Source: an uncultured Acidimicrobiales bacterium
GTDB lineage: Bacteria > Actinomycetota > Acidimicrobiia > Acidimicrobiales > SHLQ01
DNA: 43,623 nt
Reading direction: 5' to 3'
Assembly: GCA_938002955.1 (NCBI GenBank)
Contig: CALLAA010000186.1
Span: forward strand, 1-43,623
In this document: positions 12,870 to 43,623 of the stretch, one piece after another
Layout of the letters: each line of letters begins with the position of its first letter
Numbering within the stretch: the first letter of the stretch is position 1
Made by a program: the position numbers and the translations under genes
Notes under the pieces: generated by a model
Database searches by the model: none
What the model was told of the DNA's origin: nothing
What the model saw: the letters and a program-made list of their open reading frames with translations, nothing else

Positions 12870-12878
12870 GCCAGTAGT

Positions 12879-14395: not shown

Positions 14396-14396
14396 C

Positions 14397-14534
14397 TCAG
14401 GCAAAGCGGAAGGAGTAAAGCGCCGAAGCGCACAGGACGCTCAGCGCCAAGATGACAAGGTTGACGTTTCGGCCTTCTTGCATCTTCGTCCCGAGGATCG
14501 ACACGGCGAGCAAGAAGAAGAGTACGACGAACAT
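14397..14534 (-). CDS. 45-residue two-helix membrane microprotein
   Basis: A short open frame, ATG at 14534 to TGA at 14397-14399, exactly fills the gap between the CpsD-like gene and the polymerase gene. The product begins MFVVLFFLLAVSILG and ends NLVILALSVLCASALYSFRFA: two hydrophobic helices separated by the polar turn TKMQEGRN. Its start is 5 nt after the upstream stop with GGAAG about 9 nt ahead, and its stop is followed after a single base by the polymerase ATG, so it looks translated and coupled on both sides. I recognise no family. A helper subunit of the polymerase or of the Wzz-CpsD complex is a reasonable guess. Confidence 0.65.
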   Translation of the reverse strand: MFVVLFFLLAVSILGTKMQEGRNVNLVILALSVLCASALYSFRFA

Positions 14535-14539
14535 GATGC

Positions 14540-24696: not shown

Positions 24697-24730
24697 CTCG
24701 CTGGGCTAGATGTGATAGCTCGCTGGGCTA
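24692..24730. repeat. 17-bp direct repeat at a convergent gene boundary
   Basis: GATAGCTCGCTGGGCTA occurs at 24692-24708 and identically at 24714-24730, 5 nt apart. The flippase stop TAG lies in the first copy, and the stop of the converging acyl-CoA dehydrogenase gene lies in the second. Each copy also carries short TAGC/GCTA inverted arms. It looks like a small tandem duplication of the boundary. Confidence 0.9.
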
Positions 24731-26056: not shown

Positions 26057-26186
26057 TGAGGTCCTCTCGATTCGTATCGTTCTTCGAATCCTATGCGGTC
26101 CGGGCGGACATCTCCGTGCCGGAACGAGCGAGCCGGGAACTCTGCTTGAATGACAGGGCGCACCCAACACCCCAGGAGGCCGCAGC

Positions 26187-27305
26187 ATGGTCGATGTGAG
26201 CAACGTTGAGTTTCAGGTAAAGCAACGAGATCTTCCCGTGCACCGTACGGTCGAGGTCGAGGTGCAGCCGTTGGCGCCAGGCGAGATTCGAGTGGCCATC
26301 GATCGCTTTGCCTTTACGGCCAACAATCTCACCTATGGCGCCGCCGGAGACCTGCTGGGTTACTGGCGATTCTTCCCAGCCGCCGAGAACTCGTCCGGCG
26401 AGTGGGGCATTCTTCCCGTCTGGGGGTATGGCGATGTGGTCGAGTCCACCGTCGACAACGTGCCGGTCGGCGACCGTCTGTACGGATACTTCCCCCCGGC
26501 ATCGAGCGTCGTAATGACACCGACCGACGTCCGTCGATCGAGCCTGACCGACGGCGCCACCCACCGGCAGAAACTCCCGCCGCTCTACAACGGTTATCGC
26601 CGGGTCCTCGCCGATGCCGAGTACGACCGTGCCGAGGACGACGCAACGATCCTGCTCGGTCCACTGCACCTGACGTCGTTCGTTCTGGCACACAAGCTGT
26701 CGACCAACGCGTTCTACGATGCCGATCAAGTCGTGATCGTGAGTGCGTCGTCGAAGACCAGTTTGGGTCTCGCCTACGCGCTCGGGTCAGACGATGGTGC
26801 GCCCACCGTCATCGGTGCAACCTCGGACCGCAACGCCGACTTCGTCTCGAGTGTTGGACTGTACGAGCACACGGTCACCTACGACACCATCGACGCATTG
26901 CCGGATCTCACCACGGTTGTTGTCGACATGGCGGGCAACCCAATGGTCGCGTCTTCGATCGCCGAGCGGCTTGGAGCTGGGGTGAAGCGCTACATCAACG
27001 TCGGGCTCACCCATTGGGAAGAACAAGGCGCAACCGATACGTTTTCGGGTCGCCCCCAACCCGCCAGTGTCGAGAGCTTTTTCGCCCCTGGCTACATCTA
27101 TGAACACATGCGCAACTGGGGCGGCGAGGGATTCGACAGCGAATCGTCCACCTTTCTTCGACGTGCCGCCGAGGCCACCTTCGGCTGGATGACCGTTGCG
27201 CACTATCGAGGCGTCGAGGGGCTGTCGTCGGTGTACGGCGAGGTCTGCAGCGGGTCTCTCGCTCCGTCGGTCGGAGTGGTCGTCGAGATGCCGATCTCGC
27301 GATGA
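26187..27305 (+). CDS. DUF2855 family protein
   Basis: A 372-residue protein whose N-terminal half (VEVEVQPLAPGEIRVAIDRFAFTANNLTYG, then WGYGDVVESTVDNVPVGDRLYGYFPPAS) recalls the GroES-like domain of medium-chain reductases, and whose middle (VVIVSASSKTSLGLAYAL) recalls their Rossmann domain. This combination is what I know as DUF2855, whose function is not established to my knowledge. AGGAGG lies 7 nt upstream of the ATG. Its stop falls in ATGATG at the head of the next frame, so it is probably co-expressed with the HpbD-like epimerase; a reductase acting on the same compound is a reasonable guess. Confidence 0.85.
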   Translation: MVDVSNVEFQVKQRDLPVHRTVEVEVQPLAPGEIRVAIDRFAFTANNLTYGAAGDLLGYWRFFPAAENSSGEWGILPVWGYGDVVESTVDNVPVGDRLYGYFPPASSVVMTPTDVRRSSLTDGATHRQKLPPLYNGYRRVLADAEYDRAEDDATILLGPLHLTSFVLAHKLSTNAFYDADQVVIVSASSKTSLGLAYALGSDDGAPTVIGATSDRNADFVSSVGLYEHTVTYDTIDALPDLTTVVVDMAGNPMVASSIAERLGAGVKRYINVGLTHWEEQGATDTFSGRPQPASVESFFAPGYIYEHMRNWGGEGFDSESSTFLRRAAEATFGWMTVAHYRGVEGLSSVYGEVCSGSLAPSVGVVVEMPISR

Positions 27306-27334
27306 TGCGTGTCGAGAACGCCAGGACCTCCCAC

Positions 27335-28441
27335 ATGCATATTCGCGAAATCTACGTCTACGCGACCCCTCTCGGGGCCAAGACCACCTACAACATGTCG
27401 AACTCGACGGTAGAAACCCCCGTCTCGACGATCGTTGCGGTCGTCGACTCGGACGGCTTGGTCGGGTTCGGCGAGGCATGTCTCGCAAGCCCGCAATTCC
27501 AACCGGCACACAACAGTGGCGTGCGGGCATCGCTCGAGATTCTCGCGCCAGCGATACTCGGCCATGACCCAAAGCATGTGACCACGATCAACGCGGCGAT
27601 GAACCGGGCCCTCACCGGACACACCGAAGGTAAAGCAGCACTCGACATCGCATGTTGGGATCTCGCCGGCAAGCAACTCGGCGTCAGCGTCGTAGACCTC
27701 CTCGGCGGCGCCCAGATGGATGACGTCGTCACCTACCATGTCGTTGGAATCAGCTCGGCGGACGACGCTGCCGCAACGGCGCGTCGACTCCAAGACGAGG
27801 GCGTGACCCGTCTTCAGCTCAAGGCCGGAGGCCGCCCGATCCACGAAGACATCGCAAGTATTCACGCGGTCGCCGACGTCCTACTTCCCGGCACCGACCT
27901 GGCCGTCGACACCAACCGCGGATGGTCGACGACCGAAGCCGTGCAGGTGTCTCAGGCGTGTTCGAGTATCACGATGTCGTTGGAGCAGTCCTGTGCCACC
28001 GAAGCAGAGCTCGCACATGTGAAATCCCAGATCCAACACCCGATCATCGTCGACGAGAACGCTACCGACCTTGGGTCGGTCGCTCGGATGATCTCCTCCG
28101 GTCTCGCCAACGGCTTCGGACTGAAACTCACCAGGCTCGGTGGACTCACGGCGATGCGCGCCGTGCGCGACCTCTGCATGGCCACTCGCACGCCCATGAG
28201 TAGTGACGATGCGTGGGGCGGAGACATCGTCGCCGCCGCAGGCGTTTCGCTCGGGGCAACCCTCGATCCGCAGTTCAGTCGGGGTGCATGGCTCGCCCAT
28301 CCGTATCACGACACGCACTACGACGAGACCAACGGCCCGCGCATCATCGACGGTTTCGCCACCCTTCCGGCGGGCGGGCCAGGTCTTGGTCTCGTGCTCG
28401 AAACCGCACAGTTCGGCGATCCTGTCGCCGTGTACCGATAG
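27335..28441 (+). CDS. Enolase-superfamily epimerase, 4-hydroxyproline betaine 2-epimerase (HpbD)-like
   Basis: A 368-residue mandelate racemase/muconate lactonising-type enzyme. Catalytic lysines are Lys163 (LQLKAGGRP) and Lys264 (FGLKLTRLGG). Mg ligands are Asp192 (AVDTNR), Glu217 (SLEQS) and Asp240 (IVDENA). The KxGGRP and DDAWGGD motifs and the overall length closely match what I recall of HpbD, which epimerises 4-hydroxyproline betaine and proline betaine before demethylation by Rieske and FAD enzymes. ATG 27335 has AGGA 8 nt upstream and gives the family's usual N-terminus (MHIREIYVYATPLG); ATG 27302, overlapping the previous stop, would add 11 residues. Betaine specificity is inferred from similarity. 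Confidence 0.82.
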   Translation: MHIREIYVYATPLGAKTTYNMSNSTVETPVSTIVAVVDSDGLVGFGEACLASPQFQPAHNSGVRASLEILAPAILGHDPKHVTTINAAMNRALTGHTEGKAALDIACWDLAGKQLGVSVVDLLGGAQMDDVVTYHVVGISSADDAAATARRLQDEGVTRLQLKAGGRPIHEDIASIHAVADVLLPGTDLAVDTNRGWSTTEAVQVSQACSSITMSLEQSCATEAELAHVKSQIQHPIIVDENATDLGSVARMISSGLANGFGLKLTRLGGLTAMRAVRDLCMATRTPMSSDDAWGGDIVAAAGVSLGATLDPQFSRGAWLAHPYHDTHYDETNGPRIIDGFATLPAGGPGLGLVLETAQFGDPVAVYR

Positions 28442-28447
28442 CAATCT

Positions 28448-29641
28448 GTGCAGTCGCATCCCACCCCGACGAGATCGAACTTTCGACCCGAGGTGCGGCG
28501 AGTTCTCCCAGCGGTCGTCGCAGTTCGATTCGCACTCAACGTCGCCACGCGCATGACGTATACGTTTCTGCCCGCCATCGCCCGCGGCTCGGGGCTCTCC
28601 GTCGTGTCCCTTGGGCAGGTGCTCAGCATTCGAGAACTAACGTCGCTGAGCGCACCATTCACTGGCCGCGCGACCGATTCCATTGGCCCGATGCGGGTGA
28701 TGGCCTACAGCGGCCTCCTCGCCGCATTCGGACTCCTGCTTGCGCTCGGCGGAACGGTGGGCGTCGTCATTGGGATGATCGTCTTCGGCTTCGGCCGCAC
28801 TGCGTATCAGGTAGCGATGCGTTCGTGGGTCGCCGATGCAGTGAGCTACGAGCGACGCGGTCGGGCGACCGGCCTCATCGAATTGACCTGGGGTGGCGCG
28901 TCGCTCATCGGCCTGCCCATCGTCGGCTTCTTGATAGCGAGCATTCGTTGGTGGGCCCCATTTCTTGTCCTCGGTATCGCCGCCTTCCTCGTATCGATAC
29001 GTATCGCGACCTATGACCCGGCAACTGGTCGAGCATCGTTAGCCACGAGCCGCAAGCCGCATATGTCGAGGTTCGCAATCGCCGCGATAGCGACGAACGG
29101 AGCGATCACGGCCGCGGCACAGTTTCTCTTCCTCGGACACGGGCTGTGGCTCGAAGACACCTACGGGCTCGACACCGCCGAGATCGGCCTGGCGATCGTC
29201 GCTGTTGGTTTCGTCGAGGTGGTCGCAACGCTCGGGTCTTCGCGGCTAACCGATCGCCTCGGCAAGCGATGGTCGATGCTGGCAGGCACGATGGTCATGA
29301 CCGCCGCGATGATCGTGCTCGCCATAGTTAGCGCGCCGCCCCTGATCGTCGGACTCGCACTTCTTGCGATTGCGTTCCTTGGATTCGAGTTCGGCATCGT
29401 GTCGGCGATCCCGCTGCTGTCGGAGCTCGACCCAGGAGCGCGCGCACAGATGATCGGTCGCGATGTGAGTGTGTCGACGGTTATTCGGGCGGCCATCACG
29501 TTCGTCGCGAGTGCCATCTATCTCCGCACCGGGTTCTCGACGCTGATGGCCATCGCCGCCGTCGCCGGTGTGGTTGCCTGCTTGCTCGCCATCTTCGCCA
29601 TGACCGAACCCGAGATTGCGAATTCGGAGGCCGCGTCGTAG
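28448..29641 (+). CDS. Major facilitator superfamily transporter
   Basis: A 397-residue membrane protein with about 12 hydrophobic helices in two halves separated by a polar segment around residues 180-205. The loop GRATDSIGPMRVM between helices 2 and 3 and its second-half counterpart SRLTDRLGKRWSM fit the MFS G-x3-D-x-x-G motif. It is probably a drug/proton-antiporter-type or solute exporter/importer; the substrate is not evident. Start GTG 28448 lies 6 nt after the epimerase stop, so it belongs to the same transcript and may carry the epimerase's substrate. Confidence 0.88.
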   Translation: MQSHPTPTRSNFRPEVRRVLPAVVAVRFALNVATRMTYTFLPAIARGSGLSVVSLGQVLSIRELTSLSAPFTGRATDSIGPMRVMAYSGLLAAFGLLLALGGTVGVVIGMIVFGFGRTAYQVAMRSWVADAVSYERRGRATGLIELTWGGASLIGLPIVGFLIASIRWWAPFLVLGIAAFLVSIRIATYDPATGRASLATSRKPHMSRFAIAAIATNGAITAAAQFLFLGHGLWLEDTYGLDTAEIGLAIVAVGFVEVVATLGSSRLTDRLGKRWSMLAGTMVMTAAMIVLAIVSAPPLIVGLALLAIAFLGFEFGIVSAIPLLSELDPGARAQMIGRDVSVSTVIRAAITFVASAIYLRTGFSTLMAIAAVAGVVACLLAIFAMTEPEIANSEAAS

Positions 29642-29682
29642 CTCGACTTCGCTCGGCCGTTGCTGATGCTGCAGGCTGTGGC

Positions 29683-30621
29683 ATGGACGACGAACTGCGA
29701 ATTGGCAACTTGTTCGGCGGCGACGCCGCAGGAGGATTCTTCGACATACCCCGCCGACCGGTTGGTGATGTCGACGATGTGGACATCGTTGTGTTCGGGG
29801 CTGCAACGGCCACGCCATATGCGTCCGTTGGGGCCTACTGTGCCGGTGGCCCGGCCGCGATTCGATCAGCGGTTGGCTGGCCGGACATGGGCGCCCATTA
29901 CGACTTCGACCTCGGAGGAACCTTCCTCGAATCAGCGACGGCCGTCGATTGGGGCGACCTCGACCTGTCCGAGTCGGACTTCGAGCACAACCGAGCGCTC
30001 ATTCGTCGTACCGTTCGACAGGCCGTAGAGGCTGGCGCGGTTCCGGTCGCCCTCGGCGGAGACGACTCCGTGCCAATCCCGTGTCTGCAAGGTTTTGAAG
30101 ACCGAGGTCCGCTCACGATCCTCCAACTCGATGCGCACATCGATTGGCGTGACGAGGTTCAGGGCGAACGGATGGGCTTGTCGAGCAACATGCGACGGGC
30201 ATCGGAGATGCCGTGGGTGAGCAACATCGTGCAGGTTGGGGCTCGGGGTTCGGGTAGCGCACGCCCACAAGACGTGGCCGATGCTACCGAGTGGGGCGTC
30301 ACGTTCTATCCGATGCGGACGGTTCGGCGTGATGGCTTTGCTCCGGTCGTGGACTCGATCTCTCCGGGGGCGTCGGTGTACATCGCGCTCGACATCGATG
30401 TCATGGATCCCTCGGTCGTCCCAGGGGTCATCGGACCGGCTCCGGGCGGCTTTCACTACGGCGAGGTTGTCGACCTGATCGAGGCTGTCGCCGAACGGGC
30501 GACGATCGTTGGCGCGAATCTTGCCGAGTTTGCGCCGTCGGCTGATATCGGAAATCGCGGTGCGCTCGCCAGCGCACGCATCGCTGCCACCATCATGGGG
30601 CTTGTGGCTCGTCAGCGTTAG
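29683..30621 (+). CDS. Ureohydrolase (arginase/agmatinase family) with altered metal motif
   Basis: A 312-residue protein of the arginase fold. Two of the three metal motifs are standard: DAHID (Asp150, His152, Asp154) and DIDVMDP (Asp237, Asp239). The first, normally GGDHS, reads GGDDS (Asp127-Asp128), replacing a conserved His ligand of the dinuclear Mn centre by Asp. The family hydrolyses guanidino compounds (arginine, agmatine, guanidinobutyrate, guanidine, creatine-type) to urea and an amine, or formiminoglutamate. Substrate is unclear; its position beside betaine and methylamine genes suggests a guanidino-type solute. Its stop is 11 nt from that of the converging kinase-like gene. Confidence 0.85.
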   Translation: MDDELRIGNLFGGDAAGGFFDIPRRPVGDVDDVDIVVFGAATATPYASVGAYCAGGPAAIRSAVGWPDMGAHYDFDLGGTFLESATAVDWGDLDLSESDFEHNRALIRRTVRQAVEAGAVPVALGGDDSVPIPCLQGFEDRGPLTILQLDAHIDWRDEVQGERMGLSSNMRRASEMPWVSNIVQVGARGSGSARPQDVADATEWGVTFYPMRTVRRDGFAPVVDSISPGASVYIALDIDVMDPSVVPGVIGPAPGGFHYGEVVDLIEAVAERATIVGANLAEFAPSADIGNRGALASARIAATIMGLVARQR

Positions 30622-30632
30622 CCGCTATCGAT

Positions 30633-32198
30633 TCAGCGCGGGAACGACGCGGTCACGACGGCTCCACGAGGCTGGTTCGACGAGATCGAGAGCGTGCCGC
30701 CGTGTGCGGCTACCAGCGAATTGGTAATAGCGAGGCCAAGCCCGGGCGACTCCGGCCTCAGCGAAACATATGGTTCGACGACCCTCGCGAGCTGATCATC
30801 GGGGATACCAACGCCATCGTCGCTGATCTGGAGTACTACGACGTCGCCGCTGGCCCGTAACCGGATATCCACCGTCACGCCCGGCAGATTGTGCCCAAAG
30901 GAATTCGCGAGCAGGTTCTGCACGATTCGAGCAATGGCGCGCTCATCGACCGGCGCCGATACATCATCGAGAACGCTGCGTACCGACCGCTCGTCCGTGC
31001 GACCGGCGAAGTGATTGATGGCCGCGTCGACGAGCGGCCCGAGCGGCTGCATCTTTCGCGCAAGTTCCGGACCGCTTCCGTCGGGATCGTTCACGAGGCG
31101 GAGGTCGCCGACGAGCGCCTCGGCGTGCCGTGCGTACTCGACGAGGTTGTCGACCTGCGTCACGAGCTGCGAAGTCGGCAGCTGGTGTTTGACCGATTCG
31201 GTGGTGATCCGGATCGCGGCGAGAGGGGTCCCCAGATCTTGGGCGATCGTCCGCACAGCTTGCGATCGACGCCGGGCGGTTTCTTTGAGCTCCCGGTTCG
31301 CTGTTTCGAGCTGCTTTTCGTAGGTCACGAGACCACTGATATCTCGGAAAGTCGCTCGATATTCGACCGCGACCCCTTCGGCATAAATCGCCAATACATC
31401 GACGCTCACGGGAAACTCGGAGCCATCTTTGCGATAGCCGACGGTCCGAGTGCTGAACGCTGGATACGCGGCGCTCAGCGACGTTGCGTTGTCGATCACG
31501 TTGGTGATGTCGAAGAACCGATGTGTGCTCGGTAGCTCTGCCAGCTCTTGGTCGGTGTACCCAACGAACGCTGGCAGGTTCGGAGAATGGAAGGTGCGTT
31601 GCAGGTCTGCGTCGAGCACCACGACAACGTCGGCGGTGTGGTCAGCGAGGTAGCGATAGTGACGTTCGCTCAGCTCGACTTTGCTCTGCATCTCGGTTTC
31701 GCTGGCGACCACGAGGCGCAGCCGTAGGAGTTGTTCAACAACTTCGGCGAGTCTGATGAGGTCCGACCGTTGTGTCTCGGTCAGGGTGTTTGGCGCCGTG
31801 TCGAGCACGCAGAGCGTGCCGACCGCAACGTCGCCAAGCGGGCGCAACGGCACACCAGCGTAGAACCGCAGATGAAGGTCTCCGGTGACGAGGTCATTGT
31901 CGTGAAACCGAGGATCTTCACTGGCATCACGGACTTCGAAGATTCGCGCATCGGCCGGTAGGGCGATCGCATGATTACAGAACGCCAGCTCTCGAGCTGT
32001 GCCCGCTAATGCAGTGCCTACTCTGGCGGCGAAGATCTGCTCGTCGTGATCGAGAAGGGTCAGGAGGCTCATCGGCGTCTCACACGATGAGGCTGCGATG
32101 CCGGTGAGTGCGTCTAGGGAAGCGTCGTCGATGACCTCTGTTCCCAAGAGGTCGTGTACGAGTCGCAGCCGTTCCGCTTCGCCGGTCGCCGATGCCAT
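30633..32198 (-). CDS. GAF-PAS sensor histidine kinase-like protein lacking the phospho-acceptor histidine
   Basis: A 521-residue, apparently cytosolic protein (no membrane helix seen). Domains in order are GAF (about 18-160), PAS (about 176-292), a short coiled coil, a dimerisation helix region (about 300-365) and HATPase_c (about 385-521). The ATPase boxes look intact: N box RIVQNLLANSFGH (Asn428, Asn432), G1 DDGVGIPDD and G2 SPGLGLAIT. The H box, expected as SHELRTPL, reads AQDLGTPL: Gln320 (codon CAA) stands where the phosphorylated His should be. It may therefore not autophosphorylate in the usual way. No response regulator gene is adjacent; LysR lies just upstream on the same strand. 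Confidence 0.9.
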   Translation of the reverse strand: MASATGEAERLRLVHDLLGTEVIDDASLDALTGIAASSCETPMSLLTLLDHDEQIFAARVGTALAGTARELAFCNHAIALPADARIFEVRDASEDPRFHDNDLVTGDLHLRFYAGVPLRPLGDVAVGTLCVLDTAPNTLTETQRSDLIRLAEVVEQLLRLRLVVASETEMQSKVELSERHYRYLADHTADVVVVLDADLQRTFHSPNLPAFVGYTDQELAELPSTHRFFDITNVIDNATSLSAAYPAFSTRTVGYRKDGSEFPVSVDVLAIYAEGVAVEYRATFRDISGLVTYEKQLETANRELKETARRRSQAVRTIAQDLGTPLAAIRITTESVKHQLPTSQLVTQVDNLVEYARHAEALVGDLRLVNDPDGSGPELARKMQPLGPLVDAAINHFAGRTDERSVRSVLDDVSAPVDERAIARIVQNLLANSFGHNLPGVTVDIRLRASGDVVVLQISDDGVGIPDDQLARVVEPYVSLRPESPGLGLAITNSLVAAHGGTLSISSNQPRGAVVTASFPR

Positions 32199-32281
32199 CT
32201 TGGCAACCTACCCGATACCGGGAGACGCCTGCCCGAAAATCACTCTTCGTCCCATGCGTCGGACAACCGGGGTTGAACTAC

Positions 32282-33205
32282 TTACGTTGCCGCGAACGAG
32301 GCCACCGATCCCGCGATTTCGGACTGGATGCGGTGAAGAACCGCGCGATGAGCCACGCCGCCTTGCCCGGTCCGCCAGCAGAGGTGATGTCCGCTTTCGA
32401 CTCGCTCGACGATCTTGCCGACGGGAACCAACAGCCCTCGTTCGACGAGGTCGCTCAGCAGGTGTCTCCACCCGAGCGCAACCCCGTTTCCGGCGATCGC
32501 TTCTTGGATGACGGTTGGATACGCGTTGTATACGAGGCGCGGAGGCGGAGGTTGACGGCTCGCACCGGCATCAGCGAACCATTGCGGCCAGGTCATCGAC
32601 GGCCTCTCGATATCGTCGATGTGGAGCAGATTTGCCGTGAGTAACTCGTCGGGGCCGCTGTCCTGGTCGAGCTGCATTGCCTCGGCGAGGGTCGGTGCAG
32701 CCAATGGCCGGACCGCTTCATGAAATAACAACGTGGCATTCCAGCCTGGCCACTGACCTGAGCCGGGAACGATGGCGAGATCCCAGCCGTTCGAGTCGAG
32801 CTCGGAGCGACGATCGAAGATCTGCAGCCGGATCTCGGTGTTCGCCGCGTCTTCGAGCTGTTCGAGCAACGGCACGATCCACGTGGTCGCCATCGCCGGT
32901 TGAACCGCGAGCACAAACGCGTCTCGTTGTTCGACGAGTTCACCCACCGTACGTTCCATGGCCGAGAGCGATGTACCAACGACATCGGCAAGGGCCCTAC
33001 CACTCGATGTGAGCTCAAACGACCGGCCGGTACGTTCGAAGAGTTCGAAACCAAGCTCCCTCGATAACGCTGACATGTGCCGTGATACGGCAGGTTGGCT
33101 AATACCAAGATCGTTCGCCGCAGCAGTAAAGCCCCCGGACCGAACAACCGCGTCAAAGACAGCGAGACGATGAAGTTGTGGAACGCGTTTGAGCAGTGGA
33201 CGCAT
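32282..33205 (-). CDS. LysR-family transcriptional regulator
   Basis: About 307 residues. The N-terminal winged helix-turn-helix is clear (LAVFDAVVRSGGFTAAANDLGISQPAVSRHMSALSRELG, here residues about 14-52, followed by FELFERTGRSFELTSSGRAL). The C-terminal effector domain (about 80-300) resembles GcvA-type members. ATG 33205 is preferred; a TTG at 33247 would run into the putative operator. It is divergent from the FAD-GcvT dehydrogenase gene, with the T-N11-A box at 33251-33265 between them, the classical LysR layout, so it most likely controls that gene and the coupled PhyH dioxygenase in response to the substrate. Confidence 0.92.
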   Translation of the reverse strand: MRPLLKRVPQLHRLAVFDAVVRSGGFTAAANDLGISQPAVSRHMSALSRELGFELFERTGRSFELTSSGRALADVVGTSLSAMERTVGELVEQRDAFVLAVQPAMATTWIVPLLEQLEDAANTEIRLQIFDRRSELDSNGWDLAIVPGSGQWPGWNATLLFHEAVRPLAAPTLAEAMQLDQDSGPDELLTANLLHIDDIERPSMTWPQWFADAGASRQPPPPRLVYNAYPTVIQEAIAGNGVALGWRHLLSDLVERGLLVPVGKIVERVESGHHLCWRTGQGGVAHRAVLHRIQSEIAGSVASFAAT

Positions 33206-33250
33206 CTCGTGATCGTAGCCGTCACCGTGGATCGAAGGTCGATCCAATCA

Positions 33251-33265
33251 ATAACGTGGCGTTAT
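33251..33265. promoter_or_regulatory. LysR-type T-N11-A operator
   Basis: ATAACG-TGG-CGTTAT is a perfect inverted repeat with 6-bp arms and fits the T-N11-A LysR consensus. It lies 45 nt upstream of the LysR start and 57 nt upstream of the FAD-GcvT gene start. Confidence 0.65.
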
Positions 33266-33307
33266 GGAATCAGTGCACAATTAGTCATTGTCCGGAGCCG
33301 CCGGGCC

Positions 33308-33313
33308 TATAAA
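33308..33313 (+). promoter_or_regulatory. Putative -10 element of the FAD-GcvT operon
   Basis: TATAAA stands out in G+C-rich surroundings and lies 9 nt before the ATG at 33323, which would give a leaderless or nearly leaderless mRNA. No good -35 box is visible, consistent with activator (LysR) dependence. Confidence 0.4.
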
Positions 33314-33322
33314 AGTGGATGA

Positions 33323-35767: not shown

Positions 35768-36615
35768 ACGCACCAACCGGTGTCACCGAAGACGACATCG
35801 AGACCTTCTCCAGAGATGGCGTGGTGTGCCTTCGGGGAGTCATCGGACTCGACTGGATCGAGCGGCTCCGAGAAGGCGTGGAGCATACGCTCGCAAATCC
35901 CACCGAGCGGGGGCGCCTCTGGCATCGCGATGACCACGGTCGCGAGTCTCGGTACGACAGTCAGGTGTGGCGTACCCGCCCCGAGTACGGCGACTTCGTG
36001 ATGCACTCGCCGCTCGCCCAGATCGCTGGGCAGCTTATGGAAGCGACGCGGGTCAACTTCTTCTTCGATGCCATGTTTGCCCGCACCCCGGGCACCCAGT
36101 TCCGCACACCGTTTCATCAGGACGAACCGTTCTGGTCGGTCGAGGGATTCCAGACATGCTCGTCGTGGATGCCGCTCGTTCCCGTCGAAGCAGCGAGCGC
36201 GCTCGAAGTGGTTCGGGGTTCGCATCGCTGGGACCAGAAGTACCAACAAACGAACTTCGGCGCGCTGACCGGCGACGCTCGAGATCAGGTGGACTTCGCA
36301 AGCGACGACCTGGTGCCGTTTCCCGACATCGAGGGCGAGCGCGACCGCTACGACATCGCAAGCTGGGATATGGAGCCGGGCGACGTCATGTGCTTCAACG
36401 GTCGAGCGATTCACGGTGGCTCGGGAAACCTCCCCGACGATCGCGAGCTCAAGGTCTTCAATACCAAATGGTGCGGTGACGATGTGCGGGTTCGATTCCG
36501 AGAGACCGGCATGGACCCGGACCACACCGACGCGATGACCATGGTCGGTCTTGCCGACGGCGACCGGCTCGGCACCGACCTCTACCCCACCGTCTGGACT
36601 CGTAACGAACGCTAG
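35764..36615 (+). CDS. PhyH-family 2-oxoglutarate/Fe(II) dioxygenase (copy 1)
   Basis: A 283-residue phytanoyl-CoA dioxygenase-like enzyme with the facial triad His118-x-Asp120 (FHQDEPF) and distal His217 (RAIHGGSG), followed by a basic segment (DDRELKVF) that would bind 2-oxoglutarate. These enzymes hydroxylate an unactivated carbon, or demethylate, with release of CO2 and succinate. It lacks the EctD signature segment, so ectoine hydroxylation is not indicated. The start overlaps the FAD-GcvT stop, pointing to a step on the same substrate. Its stop shares CTAG with the converging second PhyH gene. Confidence 0.9.
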   Translation: MNAPTGVTEDDIETFSRDGVVCLRGVIGLDWIERLREGVEHTLANPTERGRLWHRDDHGRESRYDSQVWRTRPEYGDFVMHSPLAQIAGQLMEATRVNFFFDAMFARTPGTQFRTPFHQDEPFWSVEGFQTCSSWMPLVPVEAASALEVVRGSHRWDQKYQQTNFGALTGDARDQVDFASDDLVPFPDIEGERDRYDIASWDMEPGDVMCFNGRAIHGGSGNLPDDRELKVFNTKWCGDDVRVRFRETGMDPDHTDAMTMVGLADGDRLGTDLYPTVWTRNER

Positions 36616-37475
36616 ATCTCTTTGACGTGGCGGAGCCACAGGCCCGCGCCGGGGCGATCGCCCGGAACGTACGAGCGGTGGCCGAGGAGCTGTTGGACCC
36701 GCGTAGACCGGCCGACCAATGATCCGAGCGGATAGTCGAGCGGGCTCGCCTCTTCTGGGGTTAACCAACCAGCCACCACGCTCAAGTGCATGGCTTTACG
36801 CCACCGGTCGGTGGTTCGATTCGCTCCCCCGCCGTGGAACACATAGCCCGAGTAGACGAGAGCGTCACCTGGTCCAAGCTCGGCCGGCACGGACTCGGCT
36901 TCGGTGAATTGGCTGCCGAGGTCGTCCTGGATATGGCTTCCCGGAACAACTCGTGTAGCCCCAAGTTCTTCGGTTACGTGATCGAGACCGATCATCATGC
37001 TGAGTGTGATCTCGGGCGTGTCAGGGAAGGTACGGCTCAGGTATTCCCACCAGTTGTCGGCGTCACGATGGAGCGCCTGGGCTGGTTCGCCGGGCCCGAT
37101 GTACATCACCTGAGCGGTGTTGAGCCAGTACGTTCCACACGCCGCCAAGAGCTCGGCGTCGGCCAGCGCAGCGAACAGCGGATTGTCGAGCATGTCAAAG
37201 AATGCTGGCGACATACGCCCGAGGCTCGAGAAGCGAATCGTGTTCGCGCCGACGAACGCAGCTCCTGCTGCTCCCATGCCTTGCGTTGCCGATCCGGCTT
37301 CGAAGTCGTTCGCCCACACGTCGGCTGCGCCACTCATCTCGGTGATGGTCGATGCATCGAACATCCCCTCGACGATCACACCGCCATCTCGGTGGAGGGC
37401 TTCGAGCAACATACCGACGTCGGTCGACGCCGAGAACCGTTCGAGATGGCGAGGCGAAGGGTCGCTCGTGCTCAT
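36612..37475 (-). CDS. PhyH-family 2-oxoglutarate/Fe(II) dioxygenase (copy 2)
   Basis: About 287 residues. The iron triad is His136-x-Asp138 (LHRDADNWW) and His214 (YVFHGGGANRT), with Arg in DRWRKAM nearby for 2-oxoglutarate. The enzyme is clearly a different subgroup from copy 1 and contains the Trp-rich DADNWW segment. ATG 37475 is preferred over GTG 37484, which lies 2 nt from the upstream stop. It is the last gene of the minus-strand run choline-sulfatase to PhyH and directly follows the DddP-like gene, so a role in the same catabolism is likely. Substrate unknown. Confidence 0.88.
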   Translation of the reverse strand: MSTSDPSPRHLERFSASTDVGMLLEALHRDGGVIVEGMFDASTITEMSGAADVWANDFEAGSATQGMGAAGAAFVGANTIRFSSLGRMSPAFFDMLDNPLFAALADAELLAACGTYWLNTAQVMYIGPGEPAQALHRDADNWWEYLSRTFPDTPEITLSMMIGLDHVTEELGATRVVPGSHIQDDLGSQFTEAESVPAELGPGDALVYSGYVFHGGGANRTTDRWRKAMHLSVVAGWLTPEEASPLDYPLGSLVGRSTRVQQLLGHRSYVPGDRPGAGLWLRHVKEI

Positions 37476-37486
37476 GGGTTCCACGA

Positions 37487-38809
37487 TTACAGATCGAGCG
37501 ACAGATCCGTGAGGAGCTCCGGACCGTCCTTGGTGACCAAGACCTGGTTCTCGAGCTTGACGCCCTCACCACCAGCTCGTGGACCGACGTAACTCTCGAC
37601 GGTCAGGACCATTCCCGGCTCGAGTACGCCGTCGTAGCCCCAGTCTTCCCAATGCTCGGGCCAGTAGACCTCGGGGTACTCATCGCACTGACCAACACCG
37701 TGGAATTGGCAGCAGTAACGGCGGTACTCGTCCCACGGTGGAGACCACGCGTCGAAGGTGAGTTCGCGAAGCGTGGTACCCGGCCGGAGCATCTCGGTGT
37801 TTCGTTGGATCTGTTCGAGCGCAATGGCGTGGGTTGATGCCTGGGCTGGGCTTGGGGTGCCGCCGCCCACGAGCCATGTCCGCGAGATGTCGACCATCAT
37901 TCCGTACGCGCCGACGAGGTCGGTGTCGTACCCGAGGAGGTCTCCAGCTTCGATCACTCGACTGCTGGCTTCTTGCATCCATGGATTCGTCCTGGGTCCC
38001 GACGCCAGGATCTGTGTCTCGATCCACTCGCCCGCACGCCTGATGTTTCCTGCGTGCAGGATCGACCACACCTCGCGTTCGGTCATTCCCGGTTCCATCG
38101 CCTCCTGCATCTCGCGCATGGTTGTTTGGCACGCATGCGCAGCGCATTTCATGGCGTTGATCTCGTCTTCGCTCTTGATGACTCGAGCGAGTTCCATCAT
38201 CTCCACGCCGTTCCCGACCTCGATCCCGGCCTCAGCGAACCGCTGGTATCCGATCGGGTGGCATTGATCGATCGCGATCCGAGCGTTCTGTCCGACGTGT
38301 TCGGTAATCACGTCGATGATCTCGTCGGCGAACTTGTGTGCTTGCTCAGCCCAACGTGGTCCGGCGAGAAAATAGGTCGAGCCGCGGGCGGGCCTGGTCT
38401 CGGTGACCGCAGGGTTGTGGGCGTTGAGGAACTCACACTCATTGAATTCCCAGACGATGCAGGAACCGTCCATCCCCACCCAGCAGTAGCGGGCGGCATT
38501 GTGCATGACCCAAATCTGCATGTTCGTCGAGTCGGTCGCATAACGGATGTTCATGGGATCCATGAGCAAGGCGCCGTCGTATCCCATCGTTGCCATTTGC
38601 GCTCGTACACGGTCGATCCGGTATTGCCGCATCGCGGGCAGATCCGGGAGTGTGAGTCCCGCCGCCATCCACTCGGCTTCGAGTGCCTCACCAGGACCGA
38701 TATTGAGATGATGCAGGTCGGTGGCTGCCCGATAGACCTCGTTGGAGGCGTCGGCGAGGCTGATGGCGATTTTGGGCTGTTTCGGTGGAGCCGTCTCGTG
38801 CATGACCAT
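37487..38809 (-). CDS. dddP: DddP-like DMSP lyase (M24 metallopeptidase fold)
   Basis: A 440-residue M24/pita-bread-fold protein that resembles Roseobacter DddP over most of its length: AGLTLPDL, NIRYATDSTNMQIW, GEWIETQILASG and VDISRTW. All six DddP-type metal ligands are present: Asp295, Asp297 (YDTD), Asp307 (VDIS), His370 (FHGVG), Glu405 (TVESYVG) and Glu420 (KLENQ). Tyr365 and Asp376 (GQCDE), matching active-site residues reported for Roseobacter DddP as I recall them, are also there. DddP cleaves dimethylsulfoniopropionate to acrylate and dimethyl sulfide. ATG 38809 is preferred; GTG 38815 is possible. Its neighbours are solute-catabolic genes. A related M24 hydrolase function cannot be excluded without assay. 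Confidence 0.82.
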   Translation of the reverse strand: MVMHETAPPKQPKIAISLADASNEVYRAATDLHHLNIGPGEALEAEWMAAGLTLPDLPAMRQYRIDRVRAQMATMGYDGALLMDPMNIRYATDSTNMQIWVMHNAARYCWVGMDGSCIVWEFNECEFLNAHNPAVTETRPARGSTYFLAGPRWAEQAHKFADEIIDVITEHVGQNARIAIDQCHPIGYQRFAEAGIEVGNGVEMMELARVIKSEDEINAMKCAAHACQTTMREMQEAMEPGMTEREVWSILHAGNIRRAGEWIETQILASGPRTNPWMQEASSRVIEAGDLLGYDTDLVGAYGMMVDISRTWLVGGGTPSPAQASTHAIALEQIQRNTEMLRPGTTLRELTFDAWSPPWDEYRRYCCQFHGVGQCDEYPEVYWPEHWEDWGYDGVLEPGMVLTVESYVGPRAGGEGVKLENQVLVTKDGPELLTDLSLDL

Positions 38810-38913
38810 CGTCACATTGTGTCATACCGGCTTGTTCACAACGCCGCCGACCAGAGGAACCAGTCGATCTATTTGCAATCGATATGGGCCCATATCTCGA
38901 GCCGTCTTGTGCG

Positions 38914-40086
38914 CTACTCGATGACCCGGACACCGCGCGGAAAGCTCGTTAGACACTCGACGCCGCTCTCGGTGATCACGGTGGTCTCGCTCATCTCCAT
39001 CCCCCAGTCGTCCATCCACATGCCGAGCATCACGTGGATCGTCATGTTCTGTTCGAGCACGGTCTCTTCGTTTGGTCGAAGGCTGACCGTGTGTTCCCCC
39101 CAGTCCGGGCCGTAGCCAACACCAATTCCGTATCCGATGCGACTGTCCTTGGTGAGTCCGTACTGATCGAGGACGTCTTGCCAGGCGCGATGGACATCGT
39201 GGGCAATCGCACCGGGCCTCATCACGTCGAGTACGGCTTCGAGTCCTTCCTCGACGGCAGCCGCTGTCTCGAACAGCGACGTTGAGCCGCCTCCGAGCTG
39301 CACGGTTCGAGCCAGACCAGCGTTGTATCGCTTGTGGGCACCACCGATCTCAAAGGCGACCGTCTGGCCGGCTTGAAACGGTTCCTCGGTCCACATCGGA
39401 TGCGCGGTTGTGGCAGCTTCGCCAGCCAGAATGAGCGGCGAAAGCGCTGTCAGGTCTCCGGCGAACTCCTCATTGCCCCCGACCTGGGCAGCGACGACAG
39501 CAGCCATAAGGTCACATTGGCGAACCCCGGGAGCGATGTTTTCGTATGCGGCGTTCATTGCGCCTTCGGCGAGCCGGGCCGCTCGGCGCATCACGTCGAC
39601 CTCTGCGTCGCTCTTTACCGTCCGACACCAGTTGACCAGAAGGTCAGCGTCGACCCATCGAGCATTCGGTAGCGCGGATTGCAGCGTGGACAGGGCCTTT
39701 GGTGTGAAGAAGTAGGTGTCGCTTTCGTAGCCGACGACCTTGCCATCGAGCCCCATCTCATGGAGGTACTCGCCGAGCACCTCCATTGGGTGCGTGCCGG
39801 CTCGTTGTACACAATCCTCGGGATAGGGACGAACCTGTTCGTCGGTCAGGTACGTGGTGAACTTCGCCGCCCCCGCATCCATCTTGCGCCCCATCCAGAT
39901 CGGGCCAACATCATGCTGCACCACAACGATCTGTGGCGTATAGAACGACCACGCGTCGTAACCGGTCAGCCAGTTGTGGTTGTTTGGGTCGCCAATGACG
40001 AGTACGTCGAGGCCGCGTCGCGCCATCTCGTTACGCACACTGTCGAGACGTGCATCGAACTCTTCGCGTGCAAAGGGCGGGGCCAT
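38914..40086 (-). CDS. doeA: DoeA-like ectoine hydrolase (M24/creatinase family)
   Basis: A 390-residue creatinase-fold protein closely resembling what I recall of DoeA/EutD of halophilic bacteria: FAREEFDARL start, NWLTGYDAWSFY, PMEVLGEYL, LVNWCRTVKSDAEVDVMRRAAR and GPDWGEHTVSLRPNE. The usual M24 metal aspartates are absent (FEIGGAHKRYNAGLART), as in creatinase and DoeA, so it should be metal-independent. DoeA opens the ectoine ring to N-acetyl-diaminobutyrate. The next genes of that pathway (doeB, doeC, doeD) are not in the window. ATG 40086 lies 5 nt after the upstream PhyH stop. The reading frame happens to stay open far upstream, but that stretch is the PhyH gene in another frame. Confidence 0.83.
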   Translation of the reverse strand: MAPPFAREEFDARLDSVRNEMARRGLDVLVIGDPNNHNWLTGYDAWSFYTPQIVVVQHDVGPIWMGRKMDAGAAKFTTYLTDEQVRPYPEDCVQRAGTHPMEVLGEYLHEMGLDGKVVGYESDTYFFTPKALSTLQSALPNARWVDADLLVNWCRTVKSDAEVDVMRRAARLAEGAMNAAYENIAPGVRQCDLMAAVVAAQVGGNEEFAGDLTALSPLILAGEAATTAHPMWTEEPFQAGQTVAFEIGGAHKRYNAGLARTVQLGGGSTSLFETAAAVEEGLEAVLDVMRPGAIAHDVHRAWQDVLDQYGLTKDSRIGYGIGVGYGPDWGEHTVSLRPNEETVLEQNMTIHVMLGMWMDDWGMEMSETTVITESGVECLTSFPRGVRVIE

Positions 40087-40091
40087 GGGTT

Positions 40092-40976
40092 CTACTTTCG
40101 GTCGTGTTGATGGTCGAAGAGCGACGTGTACCCAGCGCTCCAGTCCGGTGGCAAGGTGAGCGTCATCTCTTCGTGGTGGGCCACACCGGGTTCGACCCCA
40201 CGAACGAGCTGCCCGTGATGTGAGCTTCGATATGGCGCTGCGGTATACGGGAGCGCGTCGGCGGCGGCGAAGGTGATGATCAGCATTGGCCGGCTTCGGT
40301 CGCTGTTGTTGGTTGCGGACCCATGGACGGTGAGTCCGTGGTGGACGCTGACCGTTCCGGCCTTCCCAGTCACGTGTACCGCTCCGTCGAGGTCGAGATG
40401 CGCGAGCCGAGCAGGCTCGATGGCACCGAGCCATTCGCCGGCGTCGTCGTAGTGGGAGTACAGCGTGTCGCGATGACTCCCCGCGACCATGAGCGGAGGG
40501 CCCTGTTCGTCGGTGACATCCTCGAGCGCCACCAAGAACTGGATCGTGCCGGTATTGGTATGTGGGTAGAAGGCCAGATCTTGATGCCACTTGACCGATG
40601 CCCCGCCCCCTGCCCACTTCATGTTGGCGTAGGCCTCGCGAAATCGAACGTTTGCTCCGAGTAGGTCCGCTGCGATGTCGACCAATATCGACGAACTGCA
40701 TAGCTCCCAGAACGCAGCGTGGGTGTCGTCGATGTCGGCGGCTCGTCGCAACCGGGGGTTGTGCGCCGTATGTCCGTGCTCGAGATCGAGGAGATGCGTC
40801 GAGGCCGTTAGCGACCGACTCTGTTCGACAAGCTCGGCGAGACCGTCGCGCAACGGCTGCAACTGTTTCGTATCGAGGAGCTCTGGCAACACGAGGAATC
40901 CGTGCTCGCGAAAAGACGTCCGGCCGTCGTTGCCAACGACGAGTGCTGGCTCTGCGCAGACGTCCTCCCAACGCAC
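40092..40976 (-). CDS. PhyH-family 2-oxoglutarate/Fe(II) dioxygenase (copy 3)
   Basis: A 294-residue phytanoyl-CoA dioxygenase-like enzyme. The triad is His131-x-Asp133 (VKWHQDLAFYPHT) and His218 (HGLTVHGSATN), with SDRSRPM providing the likely 2-oxoglutarate arginine. It differs from the other two copies in the residues around the triad and again lacks the EctD motif. GTG 40976 is the start, 6 nt after the stop of the cystathionine gamma-synthase-like gene. It lies directly before the DoeA-like gene, so a hydroxylation or demethylation before ring opening is conceivable, but the substrate is unknown. Confidence 0.88.
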   Translation of the reverse strand: MRWEDVCAEPALVVGNDGRTSFREHGFLVLPELLDTKQLQPLRDGLAELVEQSRSLTASTHLLDLEHGHTAHNPRLRRAADIDDTHAAFWELCSSSILVDIAADLLGANVRFREAYANMKWAGGGASVKWHQDLAFYPHTNTGTIQFLVALEDVTDEQGPPLMVAGSHRDTLYSHYDDAGEWLGAIEPARLAHLDLDGAVHVTGKAGTVSVHHGLTVHGSATNNSDRSRPMLIITFAAADALPYTAAPYRSSHHGQLVRGVEPGVAHHEEMTLTLPPDWSAGYTSLFDHQHDRK

Positions 40977-40982
40977 CTTCGT

Positions 40983-42164
40983 CTACCGATCGAGCGCCTG
41001 GGCGAGATCTGCCAGGAGGTCGCCGGTGTCTTCGATACCGGCCGAGTACCGGACAAGCCCTTCGGGGATTCCGAGCGCTGCTCGTTCTTCGGGGGTGCAT
41101 TCGACGTGACTGGTCGTTGCTGGTGGTCCGACCGTGGTCTCGACGGCACCGAGGTTCGCAGCACGATGTGCCATCTGGAGATGGGGCAGGAATTCCTTGA
41201 CCGCCTCTAGTCCGCCGTCGATCGCAAAGCTCAACATGCCACCGAAGCCGGTCATCTGCGACGCCGCTATGTCGTGTTGTGCGTGCGAGACCAGACCCGG
41301 ATAGTTCACCTTCGCGATTCGATCATGGGCGTCGAGGAACGTGGCCACTGCCATAGCGTTTTCGGCTTGTCGTTTCACCCGCAGGTCGAGCGTCTTCATA
41401 CCGCGCAACAGCAAGTAGGCGGCCATTGGATCGAGGGTTGCGCCGTTGATCTCTCGATACTGGTACACCTTCTTGACCAGCTCGGCGTCGCCGACCACAA
41501 CCCCACCGAGGGCATCGGCGTGACCGCCAAGAAACTTGGTCGCGGAGTGCACGACGAGATCGGCACCGAGCGAGAGCGGCAGTTGGTTGATCGGCGTAGC
41601 GAACGTGTTGTCCACCACGACGGTGGCGTCTACGGCATGGCCCGCCGCGATCAGGCGCCGGAGGTCGAGCACCTTGAGCGTCGGGTTGGTCGGAGTCTCG
41701 AGATAGAGCATGTTGCAGCCCTTGGCAACTTCGGCCTCGATCGCCTCGGTGTCGGTCGTGTCGACGAGCGTGCACTCGATTCCAAAGGCGGGAAGGAACT
41801 CGGTGAACAACAGGCTGGTTCCGCCGTAGGTGTCCTTTACCGAGACGACCCGACTGCCCGGCCGAAGCAGGGCGTGCAACATGTTGGAGATGGCGGCCAT
41901 GCCGGTCGACGCGGATGTGGCCGCCGCACCGCCTTCGAGGAGCCGCACCTTCTCCTCGAACACCGCGACTGTTGGGTTCGTGTTGCGCCCGTAGATATGC
42001 CCCTCAGCCTTGCCGGTCGCGACGTCGTACCACTCGTCGAAGTCCGGGTAACCAAAGGCGACGCTATGCACCACGGGCACCTGGGTAGCCCGGTCGAGCA
42101 GATACCGATCCTCGCCTCCCCAAACGGCTTGTGATGCTTGCGAACGCGGCTGGGAATCAGGCAC
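40983..42164 (-). CDS. Cys/Met metabolism PLP-dependent enzyme (cystathionine gamma-synthase/lyase family)
   Basis: A 393-residue fold-type I PLP enzyme. It shows YGRNTNPT (Tyr and Arg that hold the phosphate of the neighbouring subunit), [44 protein letters not shown] and the PLP lysine in SATKFLGGH, ending with the usual VRYSAGIED. The YGGT segment has Gly where methionine gamma-lyase has its characteristic Cys, so cystathionine synthase/lyase or another thiol-transfer activity is more likely than methionine gamma-lyase. GTG 42164 follows AAGGGGGAG. In this cluster it may handle sulfur from an organosulfur solute. Confidence 0.9.
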
Positions 42165-42261
42165 CGCTCCCCCTTGGAGTCGTGGCTACGGAAAAAGTTT
42201 CCTCACGTTACACCCGGCACCGATCTTCCTACGAGTGGGAAGGCTCTCGCCCCAACGGTGC

Positions 42262-43623
42262 TTATCCCCGGACGTGAAGCCGACTCGAGAGGGACGCGTC
42301 GACGACGTCTTGGTGGTTTCGTACGTAGCTGTTGGCGACGTCGTTCGCCGGCAGGTGATCCCATGAACGAAGTCCAGCGGTGGCCTCGGTCGCTCGGTGG
42401 ATGGCGTGACGATTACGTTGGCTCGCCAGAACGCGCTCGGTGATTGAATCGCTGTCCCAACGCTGTGCCACCTCGGCGGCGAAGCTCGCTGCAGCGTCGG
42501 CGTAGGCGGGGTCGGTTGCGAGATTGGTGCGTTCGAGCGGATCTGCGATGACGTCGTAGAGCAGGGGCTCGTCGGTGTCGCAATGAATGTACTTCAGGTT
42601 CTCTCGACGGATCATGTAGATCGGACGCGACGTCATCTCTGCCATGTATTCACCAATGGCCTCATCGACATCGTCCGTGCCACCGCTGGCGAGCGGCCAC
42701 AGGCTCCGGCCATCGAGGTCGGGGGCCGAATCCGCCCAGTCGCCGCCATCGGTCGCGATGTCGAGCAAGGTCGGCAGCAGGTCCAAGTGCGATGCTGCGT
42801 GGGAGACGGTCGTGTTCGCAATGCCGGGGCCAGCCATCACCAGCGGCACGCGCGCGGACCGCTCGTGGAACGTCATCTTGTACCAAAGGCCGCGATCGCC
42901 GAGCATGTCACCGTGGTCGCTCGTGAACATCACGATGGTGTTGTCCGCGAGTCCAGTCTCCTCCAAGGTCGCCACCAGCTGTCCGAGCCAGTGGTCGACG
43001 TAACTGGTGTTTGCGTAGTAGCCGTGGCGAGCGTTTCGCGTTTGTTCCTCGGTGAACCCGACCGTGTCGGCCTCGATGCCGGTGCGGATCCGCTGGCTAT
43101 GTGCGTCGAGGGTTTCGAGGTCGATCGCGTCCGGAAGATCGATGTCGTCGTGGTCGTAGGTGTTCCACCATTCAGGGCGAGCAACATACGGGTCATGGGG
43201 ATGAATAAAGGAGGCGACGAGGAAGAATGGGCGGTCGTCTTGATGGTCGCGAGCGAGGTCGAGCAGGCGCCGTCGCGAGGTATAGCCAACCTCTTCGTCG
43301 TAATCGATCTGGTGGGTGGTGACGGCCTGCCCAGCCTCCGTGAGTGGGTCCATATTGTGGTACCACTTGTCGATCCGGTCACCCGATGCTGCCCAATCTG
43401 GCGTCCAGGCAAAATCTGCTGGGTAGATATCGGTCGTCAGTCGTTCCTCGAATCCGTGCAGCTGATCGGGTCCAACGAAGTGCATCTTGCCGGACAACAC
43501 GGTGCGGTATCCGGTTGCCTGAAGATGGTGGGCAAGGGTCGGAATCGACGCCGGGAATTCGGCCGCATTGTCCCACGCTCCGATCGCGCTGATCGTTCGT
43601 CCTGCCATCATCGAGAACCGGGC
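42262..43623 (-). CDS. betC: Choline-sulfatase, 5' end outside window
   Basis: The frame is open to the window edge; 453 residues are visible and only the N-terminus, with the modified catalytic cysteine of the CxPxR motif, is missing (the first visible residues, ARFSMMAGRT, follow it). The BetC-specific stretch SGKMHFVGPDQLHGFEERL, then DIYPADFAWTPDW, is present, as are HPHDPYVARPEWW, the metal-binding SDHGDMLGDRGLWYK and the C-terminal SWDHLPANDVANSYVRNH typical of choline-sulfatase. It releases choline and sulfate from choline-O-sulfate, a marine and plant osmolyte. No betA/betB follows within the window. It starts or lies early in the minus-strand solute run. Confidence 0.93.
   Translation of the reverse strand, partial: ARFSMMAGRTISAIGAWDNAAEFPASIPTLAHHLQATGYRTVLSGKMHFVGPDQLHGFEERLTTDIYPADFAWTPDWAASGDRIDKWYHNMDPLTEAGQAVTTHQIDYDEEVGYTSRRRLLDLARDHQDDRPFFLVASFIHPHDPYVARPEWWNTYDHDDIDLPDAIDLETLDAHSQRIRTGIEADTVGFTEEQTRNARHGYYANTSYVDHWLGQLVATLEETGLADNTIVMFTSDHGDMLGDRGLWYKMTFHERSARVPLVMAGPGIANTTVSHAASHLDLLPTLLDIATDGGDWADSAPDLDGRSLWPLASGGTDDVDEAIGEYMAEMTSRPIYMIRRENLKYIHCDTDEPLLYDVIADPLERTNLATDPAYADAAASFAAEVAQRWDSDSITERVLASQRNRHAIHRATEATAGLRSWDHLPANDVANSYVRNHQDVVDASLSSRLHVRG

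Follow-up and report, generated by a model that had tools for sequence, protein, structure and literature searches.

Clusters for ectoine and hydroxyectoine catabolism are described by the gene set doeA/eutD, doeB/eutE, atf/doeD, ssd/doeC and eutABC, and the accessible part of a 2026 survey gives the order eutD-eutC-atf in Bacillaceae and calls such clusters tentative (PMC13188858). Here we compare this system, and also choline-sulfatase BetC, the dimethylsulfoniopropionate (DMSP) lyase DddP, HpbD and dimethylglycine dehydrogenase, with a catabolic island of an uncultured Acidimicrobiales bacterium. The window, i.e. the whole stretch of 43,623 nucleotides that was analyzed (CALLAA010000186.1 of assembly GCA_938002955.1), is the entire contig C186 of a metagenome-assembled genome (MAG) of 3.93 Mb, divided over 270 contigs and 89.5% complete. 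Gene families were assigned by Pfam and NCBIfam scans of the window reading frames, and at 26187-43623 these gave 14 genes within 17.4 kb. A sequence-only reading had described a dense osmolyte catabolism island here, which may serve either as a scavenging module for mixed solutes or as a pathway for one undescribed compound. The packing and all the families it named, including the major facilitator superfamily (MFS) transporter and the LysR regulator, were recovered in their places, and the scans added a DUF2855 protein and a histidine kinase that it did not name. Our results make it probable that the region is a mosaic of osmolyte-catabolism modules, neighbours in one species pair and including an ectoine-type variant, and not one pathway. 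As judged from sequence, the modules are a block of a pyridoxal-phosphate (PLP) enzyme, the dioxygenase PhyH3 and the ectoine-hydrolase homologue DoeA'; a LysR regulator paired with a dimethylglycine-dehydrogenase-like (DMGDH) gene, here with PhyH1; a DddP-like gene; a DUF2855-MLE-MFS-ureohydrolase operon; and a cut choline-sulfatase gene.

The minus-strand block consists of the Cys/Met PLP enzyme (40983..42164), PhyH3 (40092..40976; PF05721, 99.3 bits) and DoeA' (38914..40101), and its homologues indicate that it is a unit conserved in Acidimicrobiales and partly in Gammaproteobacteria. Among 59 related genomes, our own and the sister species G008 included, DoeA' (at least 75%) was found in G000, G006, G007, G008, G010 and G016 and the PLP enzyme (at least 89%) in the same six. 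The two share one contig in all six genomes, within about 2.5 kb, and as these genomes are close kin they do not represent six independent events. A scan of named genomes gave 34 DoeA' loci, 9 from Actinomycetota (sister included), 8 from Gammaproteobacteria, 16 from Alphaproteobacteria and 1 from Betaproteobacteria. The PLP enzyme and PhyH3 (at least 58%) are each present in 8 of the 9 Actinomycetota loci, with PhyH3 relatives of 58-64% adjoining DoeA' in 7 non-sister loci, and in Gammaproteobacteria each is present in 3 (with a threshold of 44% for PhyH3). A neighbour survey, which included only one alphaproteobacterial locus out of the 16, placed a DoeB-like gene next to DoeA' in five of the nine Actinomycetota loci as well as in L084 and L101. 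Of the five Actinomycetota genes, four pass the DoeB cut-off of 402.7 bits (431.6, 436.9, 448.3 and 444.3) and the fifth, in G007, has an internal stop. L076 combines DoeA' and the PLP enzyme in one cluster with DoeB and with a canonical DoeA that scores 616 bits (cut-off 613). We regard the block as a likely, uncharacterised variant of ectoine-type catabolism. A literature search gave no paper joining 'ectoine hydrolase' with 'phytanoyl-CoA dioxygenase', and in the accessible parts of the sources the block was not found described.

Some other assignments around the block were considered and rejected. An open frame at 38914-41100 would give a 728-aa fusion, which is an over-long reading of DoeA', as the extra part is the frame lying under PhyH3, whose gene is read in a different frame and covers the 5' portion of the 728-aa frame. 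PhyH3 was not retained as EctD, since the matches are distant only (3emr, 5.9e-8; 4mhr, 5.9e-7) and the best overall match is leucine hydroxylase (5nch, 4.6e-10), and an EutB role for a PALP gene in L076 was set aside because the family that fits this gene best is D-cysteate sulfo-lyase CuyA (332 bits against a cut-off of 450). An amidase-family gene was seen near DoeA' in 8 loci, alphaproteobacterial and Acidimicrobiales alike (e.g. L086 3832-5175 and L105 15581-17041).

The best solved relative of DoeA' is DoeA (6twk, 350.6 bits). An alignment of 44 sequences has 52 invariant columns, among them E251, H234 and W237, and E251 aligns with E255 of DoeA, a residue that we assume to have a role in that enzyme. 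In the corresponding tree (midpoint root, with a long-branch warning and a long Priestia row) DoeA' and its Shinella and Roseateles relatives form a clade apart from canonical DoeA with a support of 100/99, and this clade is spread over Acidimicrobiales, SAR116 and other Alphaproteobacteria, and Gammaproteobacteria. The 6 canonical sequences are split from 35 DoeA' sequences by 17 alignment columns. These include F249A, A253G, H260N and P262G, each conserved in 33-34 of the 35 DoeA' sequences, and all four are changes to smaller residues within 11 residues of E251. Because the residues near E251 differ from canonical DoeA in this way, we read them as an altered pocket. The gene context of the clade also varies: the Shinella relative stands in a DUF1989-M24-M20 context and the Roseateles relative between an aminotransferase-family gene with eutA and an M20 gene, and most alphaproteobacterial loci hold a zinc alcohol dehydrogenase, an esterase, an agmatinase, DoeA', an acetylornithine-deacetylase-like M20 protein and an EamA transporter (families read on L085, L086 and L094), where the agmatinase reaches 212.3 bits (cut-off 174.3) and the M20 protein 369.5 (cut-off 297.7).

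The PLP enzyme belongs to the cystathionine gamma-synthase family NF006097/PRK08249, scoring 663.8 bits against a cut-off of 600, and contains the SATK motif; relatives from Priestia (764.2) and from the gammaproteobacterial locus L081 (660.7) are also above the cut-off. At E 1e-100 or better, plasmid records contain 33 relatives (58-69%), of which 27 are from Klebsiella, 5 from Priestia and 1 from Pluralibacter, and the gene context was read in one Klebsiella and one Priestia. The former has ehuBCDA, a PLP-dependent aminotransferase-family gene, doeA, doeB and the PLP gene, and the latter has PucR-eutB-pdxS-M24-cyclodeaminase-PLP-M20-homoserine dehydrogenase-aldehyde dehydrogenase; both loci are ectoine clusters. 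The Priestia order M24-cyclodeaminase-PLP would match eutD-eutC-atf if the PLP gene is the atf of the survey, as far as its accessible part describes it (PMC13188858). The island shares with the known ectoine/hydroxyectoine system a DoeA-family M24 hydrolase, a PLP subfamily present in these plasmid clusters and, in relatives, a DoeB adjoining DoeA'; it differs in the separate DoeA' clade and in having PhyH dioxygenases inside the block. It differs also in the accessory genes, as tblastn of the window at E 1e-10 gave no match to EutA, EutB, EutC, DoeB, M20, homoserine dehydrogenase, aldehyde dehydrogenase, MocR-type or EhuB proteins.

A second conserved element is the LysR regulator (32282..33247, minus strand; PF00126/PF03466) divergent from DMGDH (33323..35767, plus strand). 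DMGDH orthologues of 81-88% lie beside LysR in four of five non-sister loci examined (G006, G007, G013 and G016); the fifth, G034, has just 0.9 kb of contig upstream, and a partial orthologue in G005 was left out. The two genes are one conserved pair. The closely following PhyH1 (35764..36615, plus strand; PF05721, 81.8 bits), which overlaps DMGDH by 4 bases, adjoins DMGDH in none of the five loci. DMGDH resembles dimethylglycine dehydrogenase in having all four domains (PF01266, PF16350, PF01571 and PF08669) and in scoring 484.8 bits with the human enzyme 5l46, and departs from a simple correspondence in that the MAG holds four further matches at 31-39%. It would demethylate an N-methylated amino acid. 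LysR is best matched by TIGR03418, a model for the regulator of choline sulfate utilization, at 185.6 bits (cut-off 324.8). No DMGDH relative turned up in a single scan of viral contigs. Two genomes have a PLP decarboxylase beside the DMGDH orthologue, and a histidinol-dehydrogenase-like/DegT frame found there belongs to a family present in four genomes. Neither was seen in the window; the loci concerned are L116 7327-11587 (G013 C42), G006 C68, G016 C91 and G034 C59.

The DddP-like M24 protein (37487..38815, minus strand; PF00557/PF01321) is a candidate DMSP lyase. Six metal-ligand and two proposed catalytic residues have been assigned in the Roseobacter enzyme, according to the accessible part of its description (PMC4108388). 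Aligned with 4rzy, the window protein has the ligands D295, D297, D307, H371, E406 and E421 as well as Y366 and D377, i.e. 8 of 8 by hand count, and because the ligands and the proposed catalytic residues are all aligned, DMSP lyase activity is plausible. The M24 fold is shared as well, whereas the score of 457.7 bits is below the NF043017 cut-off of 600 and an AcuI/YhdH-type gene is found on another contig, C68, and not among the window frames scanned. DddP relatives (45-67%) were found in 18 places outside the sister, and in none of these 18 neighbourhoods, which covered up to 20 kb per side and in some cases lay on short contigs, was any other island gene present at 45% or more.

The choline-sulfatase (42262..43623, minus strand) lacks its 5' end, as the contig stops within the gene, and its match begins at model position 55 of 500. 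Like BetC it is above the equivalog cut-off of TIGR03417 (571.6 against 433.45 bits); unlike a plain betC, the gene is cut and a second copy is present on C223 (611.4 bits, above the cut-off). This other contig (G000 C223; L145 and L146) contains three PhyH genes together with the choline-sulfatase and is possibly a parallel island.

The plus-strand operon begins with DUF2855 (26187..27305; PF11017, 314 bits), followed after an overlap of 4 bases by a protein of the MLE/mandelate-racemase family (27302..28441; PF13378/PF02746), and after gaps of 6 and 41 bases by the MFS transporter (28448..29641; PF07690, 101.5 bits) and an arginase-family ureohydrolase (29683..30621; PF00491, 178.5 bits). 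The closest solved structures of the MLE protein are 4e8g (321.5 bits), 4h2h (286.1) and 2pmq (285.7), which we take to be HpbD, a 4R-hydroxyproline-betaine 2-epimerase, and as a candidate betaine epimerase it keeps two K motifs and DDAWGG; it differs from HpbD in its operon partners, and it scores 262.1 bits with the cis-3-hydroxyproline dehydratase of NCBIfam, below the cut-off of 500. The MLE protein would epimerise a betaine. Among its neighbours in relatives, the sister left out, four families recur, each in two genomes. The ureohydrolase is a member of the Pfam arginase family and falls below the agmatinase cut-off (114.9 against 174.3 bits). It contains DAHID and DxDxxDP, and in place of GGDH[ST], presumably the usual metal motif, it has GGDDS, which is kept in all six copies of its clade (window, G007, G008, G010, G016 and G017). 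The two alphaproteobacterial arginase-family copies compared (L086 and L094) have GGDHT. Because GGDDS is conserved in 6/6 copies, the metal or the substrate of this clade may differ. With the sister left out, no neighbour family within 7 kb of the ureohydrolase was common to two genomes.

The sequence-only reading had also argued that the genes expected to follow in each single route are absent, and that this points to a common, unusual substrate. On the contig the ectoine route is indeed missing by tblastn. Elsewhere in the MAG, however, the end of C192 carries a canonical-type doeA (602.3 bits, just below the cut-off of 613) beside doeB (472.9 against a cut-off of 402.7), C42 has betA (848.9 against 732.1) and the end of C68 has an AcuI/YhdH-type gene (404.3 against 297.25). 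The absence was seen because only one contig of a draft genome was in view, and the argument for an unusual substrate does not hold genome-wide. For these routes our own-genome search covered doeA/doeB, betA, the AcuI/YhdH-type gene and choline-sulfatase. In the mosaic, DddP would supply acrylate to the AcuI/YhdH-type reductase and the choline-sulfatase would supply choline to BetA.

For the block, the proposed steps are that DoeA', using its glutamate 251, performs the ring opening of a substrate that is ectoine, hydroxyectoine or a closely similar cyclic amidine, that DoeB (encoded on C192 here and adjacent in relatives) takes off the acyl group, that PhyH3 hydroxylates the substrate or an intermediate, and that the PLP enzyme takes a diaminobutyrate-type product, perhaps by an alpha,gamma-elimination that would replace the DoeD/DoeC route, the last being a guess from family chemistry. 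Several observations count against an ectoine-type assignment. DoeA' scores 431.6 bits with the ectoine hydrolase equivalog TIGR02993 (cut-off 613) and its L074 orthologue 427.1, as compared to 602.3, 602.5 and 616 for the canonical-type copies of the group, and given this low score and the separate clade its substrate may differ from ectoine; moreover, the PLP enzyme is present in only 3 of 25 non-actinobacterial DoeA' loci (3/8 in Gammaproteobacteria, 0/16 in Alphaproteobacteria, 0/1 in Betaproteobacteria). A rival explanation, plain ectoine/hydroxyectoine catabolism with DoeA' as merely a divergent ectoine hydrolase, agrees with the family membership, with the invariance of E251, H234 and W237, and with the finding that in three of the six DoeA'/PLP genomes (G006, G007 and G010) DoeB adjoins DoeA' and no second DoeA is detected at E 1e-40. 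We nevertheless consider it possible but doubtful, in view of the 17 clade-diagnostic differences, with four of them near E251 and all to smaller residues, and of the canonical-type DoeA and DoeB that our own MAG has in addition, as has L076 beside DoeA'. Somewhat more speculatively, DoeA', PhyH3 and the PLP enzyme, joined in some genomes by the MLE protein and the GGDDS ureohydrolase, could break down an osmolyte that is new to science, an ectoine-like cyclic amidine or cyclic guanidine bulkier than ectoine. This reading draws on the smaller residues around E251 (F249A, A253G, H260N and P262G), on the pairing of alphaproteobacterial DoeA' with an agmatinase and the acetylornithine-deacetylase-like M20 protein, and on that of the Shinella relative with DUF1989 and M20; we hold it to be unlikely as it stands.

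Whether the island as a whole serves one compound depends on its conservation. The whole set was found only in the sister G008, where each of the genes tested between GalE (19865) and the sulfatase, both included, is present. They are spread over the three contigs C261, C155 and C346, with breaks inside LysR and PhyH2; we infer that the three join into one region. Outside G008 only modules were found, and the genes do not stay together as one conserved catabolic island. A series of MLE, ureohydrolase, DoeA', PhyH1-3, PLP enzyme and DMGDH acting on e.g. an N-methylated or guanidino cyclic amino acid would fit the retention of all modules in the sister, and further linkage weighs against a mosaic in the same way: L074 has MLE-PhyH3-DoeA' in a row, G007 has ureohydrolase-PhyH-PLP-PhyH3-DoeA', and G006 has seven island relatives over about 32 kb. 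On its contig with the DoeA' block, G006 carries MLE (76%), PhyH2 (66%, C5), PhyH1 and DUF2855, and relatives of the latter two are near the block in both G006 and G010 (PhyH1 76-77%; DUF2855 59% and 56%). Of the 16 alphaproteobacterial loci, 13 have an arginase-family gene next to DoeA', although the likeness is only 25-27%. Near DddP relatives a DMGDH-type gene occurs at 28-34% in 7 of 18 places, five genomes share a family of FAD oxidoreductases there and four a sulfatase family, and an MLE-type gene is present at 25% in one place; also, the relatives are mostly fragmented MAGs, in which contig breaks can hide linkage. Against one pathway, gene spacing proposes several transcription units on both strands, namely the DUF2855 operon, DMGDH-PhyH1, LysR with the histidine kinase, and a minus-strand unit of sulfatase, PLP, PhyH3, DoeA', DddP and PhyH2 (gaps of 97 and 6 bases, an overlap of 10, gaps of 98 and 2). 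The ureohydrolase and DoeA' are on different contigs in G010 and G016 (where the contigs are short), G017 has the ureohydrolase without DoeA', and the DMGDH and DddP orthologues are off the DoeA' contig in all three non-sister genomes with all three genes (G006, G007 and G016). As most modules separate in relatives and the MAG holds genes that continue the separate routes, we rejected one compound for the whole island as the best reading and regard it as improbable, while for the ectoine-like block it is possible; the scavenging of mixed solutes that was proposed as the other option is supported. Of the expectation that the genes would be kept together in related genomes, the conserved block and the few relatives that tie MLE, ureohydrolase, PhyH1, PhyH2 or DUF2855 to it are what stood, and most other pairs split beyond the sister, DddP in every place. 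The island genes show loose regional linkage, with no fixed unit. Chance packing without functional grouping might be expected in a genome with 16 PhyH genes and five DMGDH-type matches, where two other contigs, C223 and C258, have 3 PhyH genes each, so that clustering of PhyH genes is a general trait of this genome. Yet 3 PhyH genes in 17.4 kb compare with 0.07 expected, and the co-occurrence of DoeA' and PLP in the same 6/59 genomes, like that of LysR and DMGDH in four non-sister relatives, disfavours chance, which we consider very improbable.

If the mosaic with its ectoine-type block is correct, ectoine-type ring opening has a second, widespread enzyme clade that falls under the DoeA model score and would be filed as M24 peptidase, and in some lineages a Cys/Met-type PLP enzyme and a dioxygenase join the ectoine route. 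This would either lengthen the list of ectoine-consuming microbes or point to an osmolyte not yet listed. The island itself matters less, showing that osmolyte modules cluster in one lineage without clear signs of one pathway.

The remaining island genes are PhyH2 (36612..37484, minus strand; PF05721, 89.5 bits) and the sensor histidine kinase (30633..32198, minus strand; PF02518 and PF00512), which is 97% in the sister, is separated from LysR by 83 bases and has no assigned link to the island. Upstream, an acyl-CoA dehydrogenase family gene (24728-26203; 97% in the sister) is divergent from DUF2855 with overlapping starts, and its best models, acryloyl-CoA reductase, glutaryl-CoA dehydrogenase and 3-sulfinopropanoyl-CoA desulfinase, are each below cut-off. 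Beside the catabolic region, 7479-24696 holds an exopolysaccharide-type cluster (glycosyltransferases, O-antigen ligase, flippase, WecG, GalE, a PLP decarboxylase and a GH9 glycosidase), and 648-5934 an aromatic-degradation-like set with a LigB-type ring-cleavage dioxygenase, a Rieske oxygenase, SDR proteins, TetR and an enoyl-CoA hydratase.

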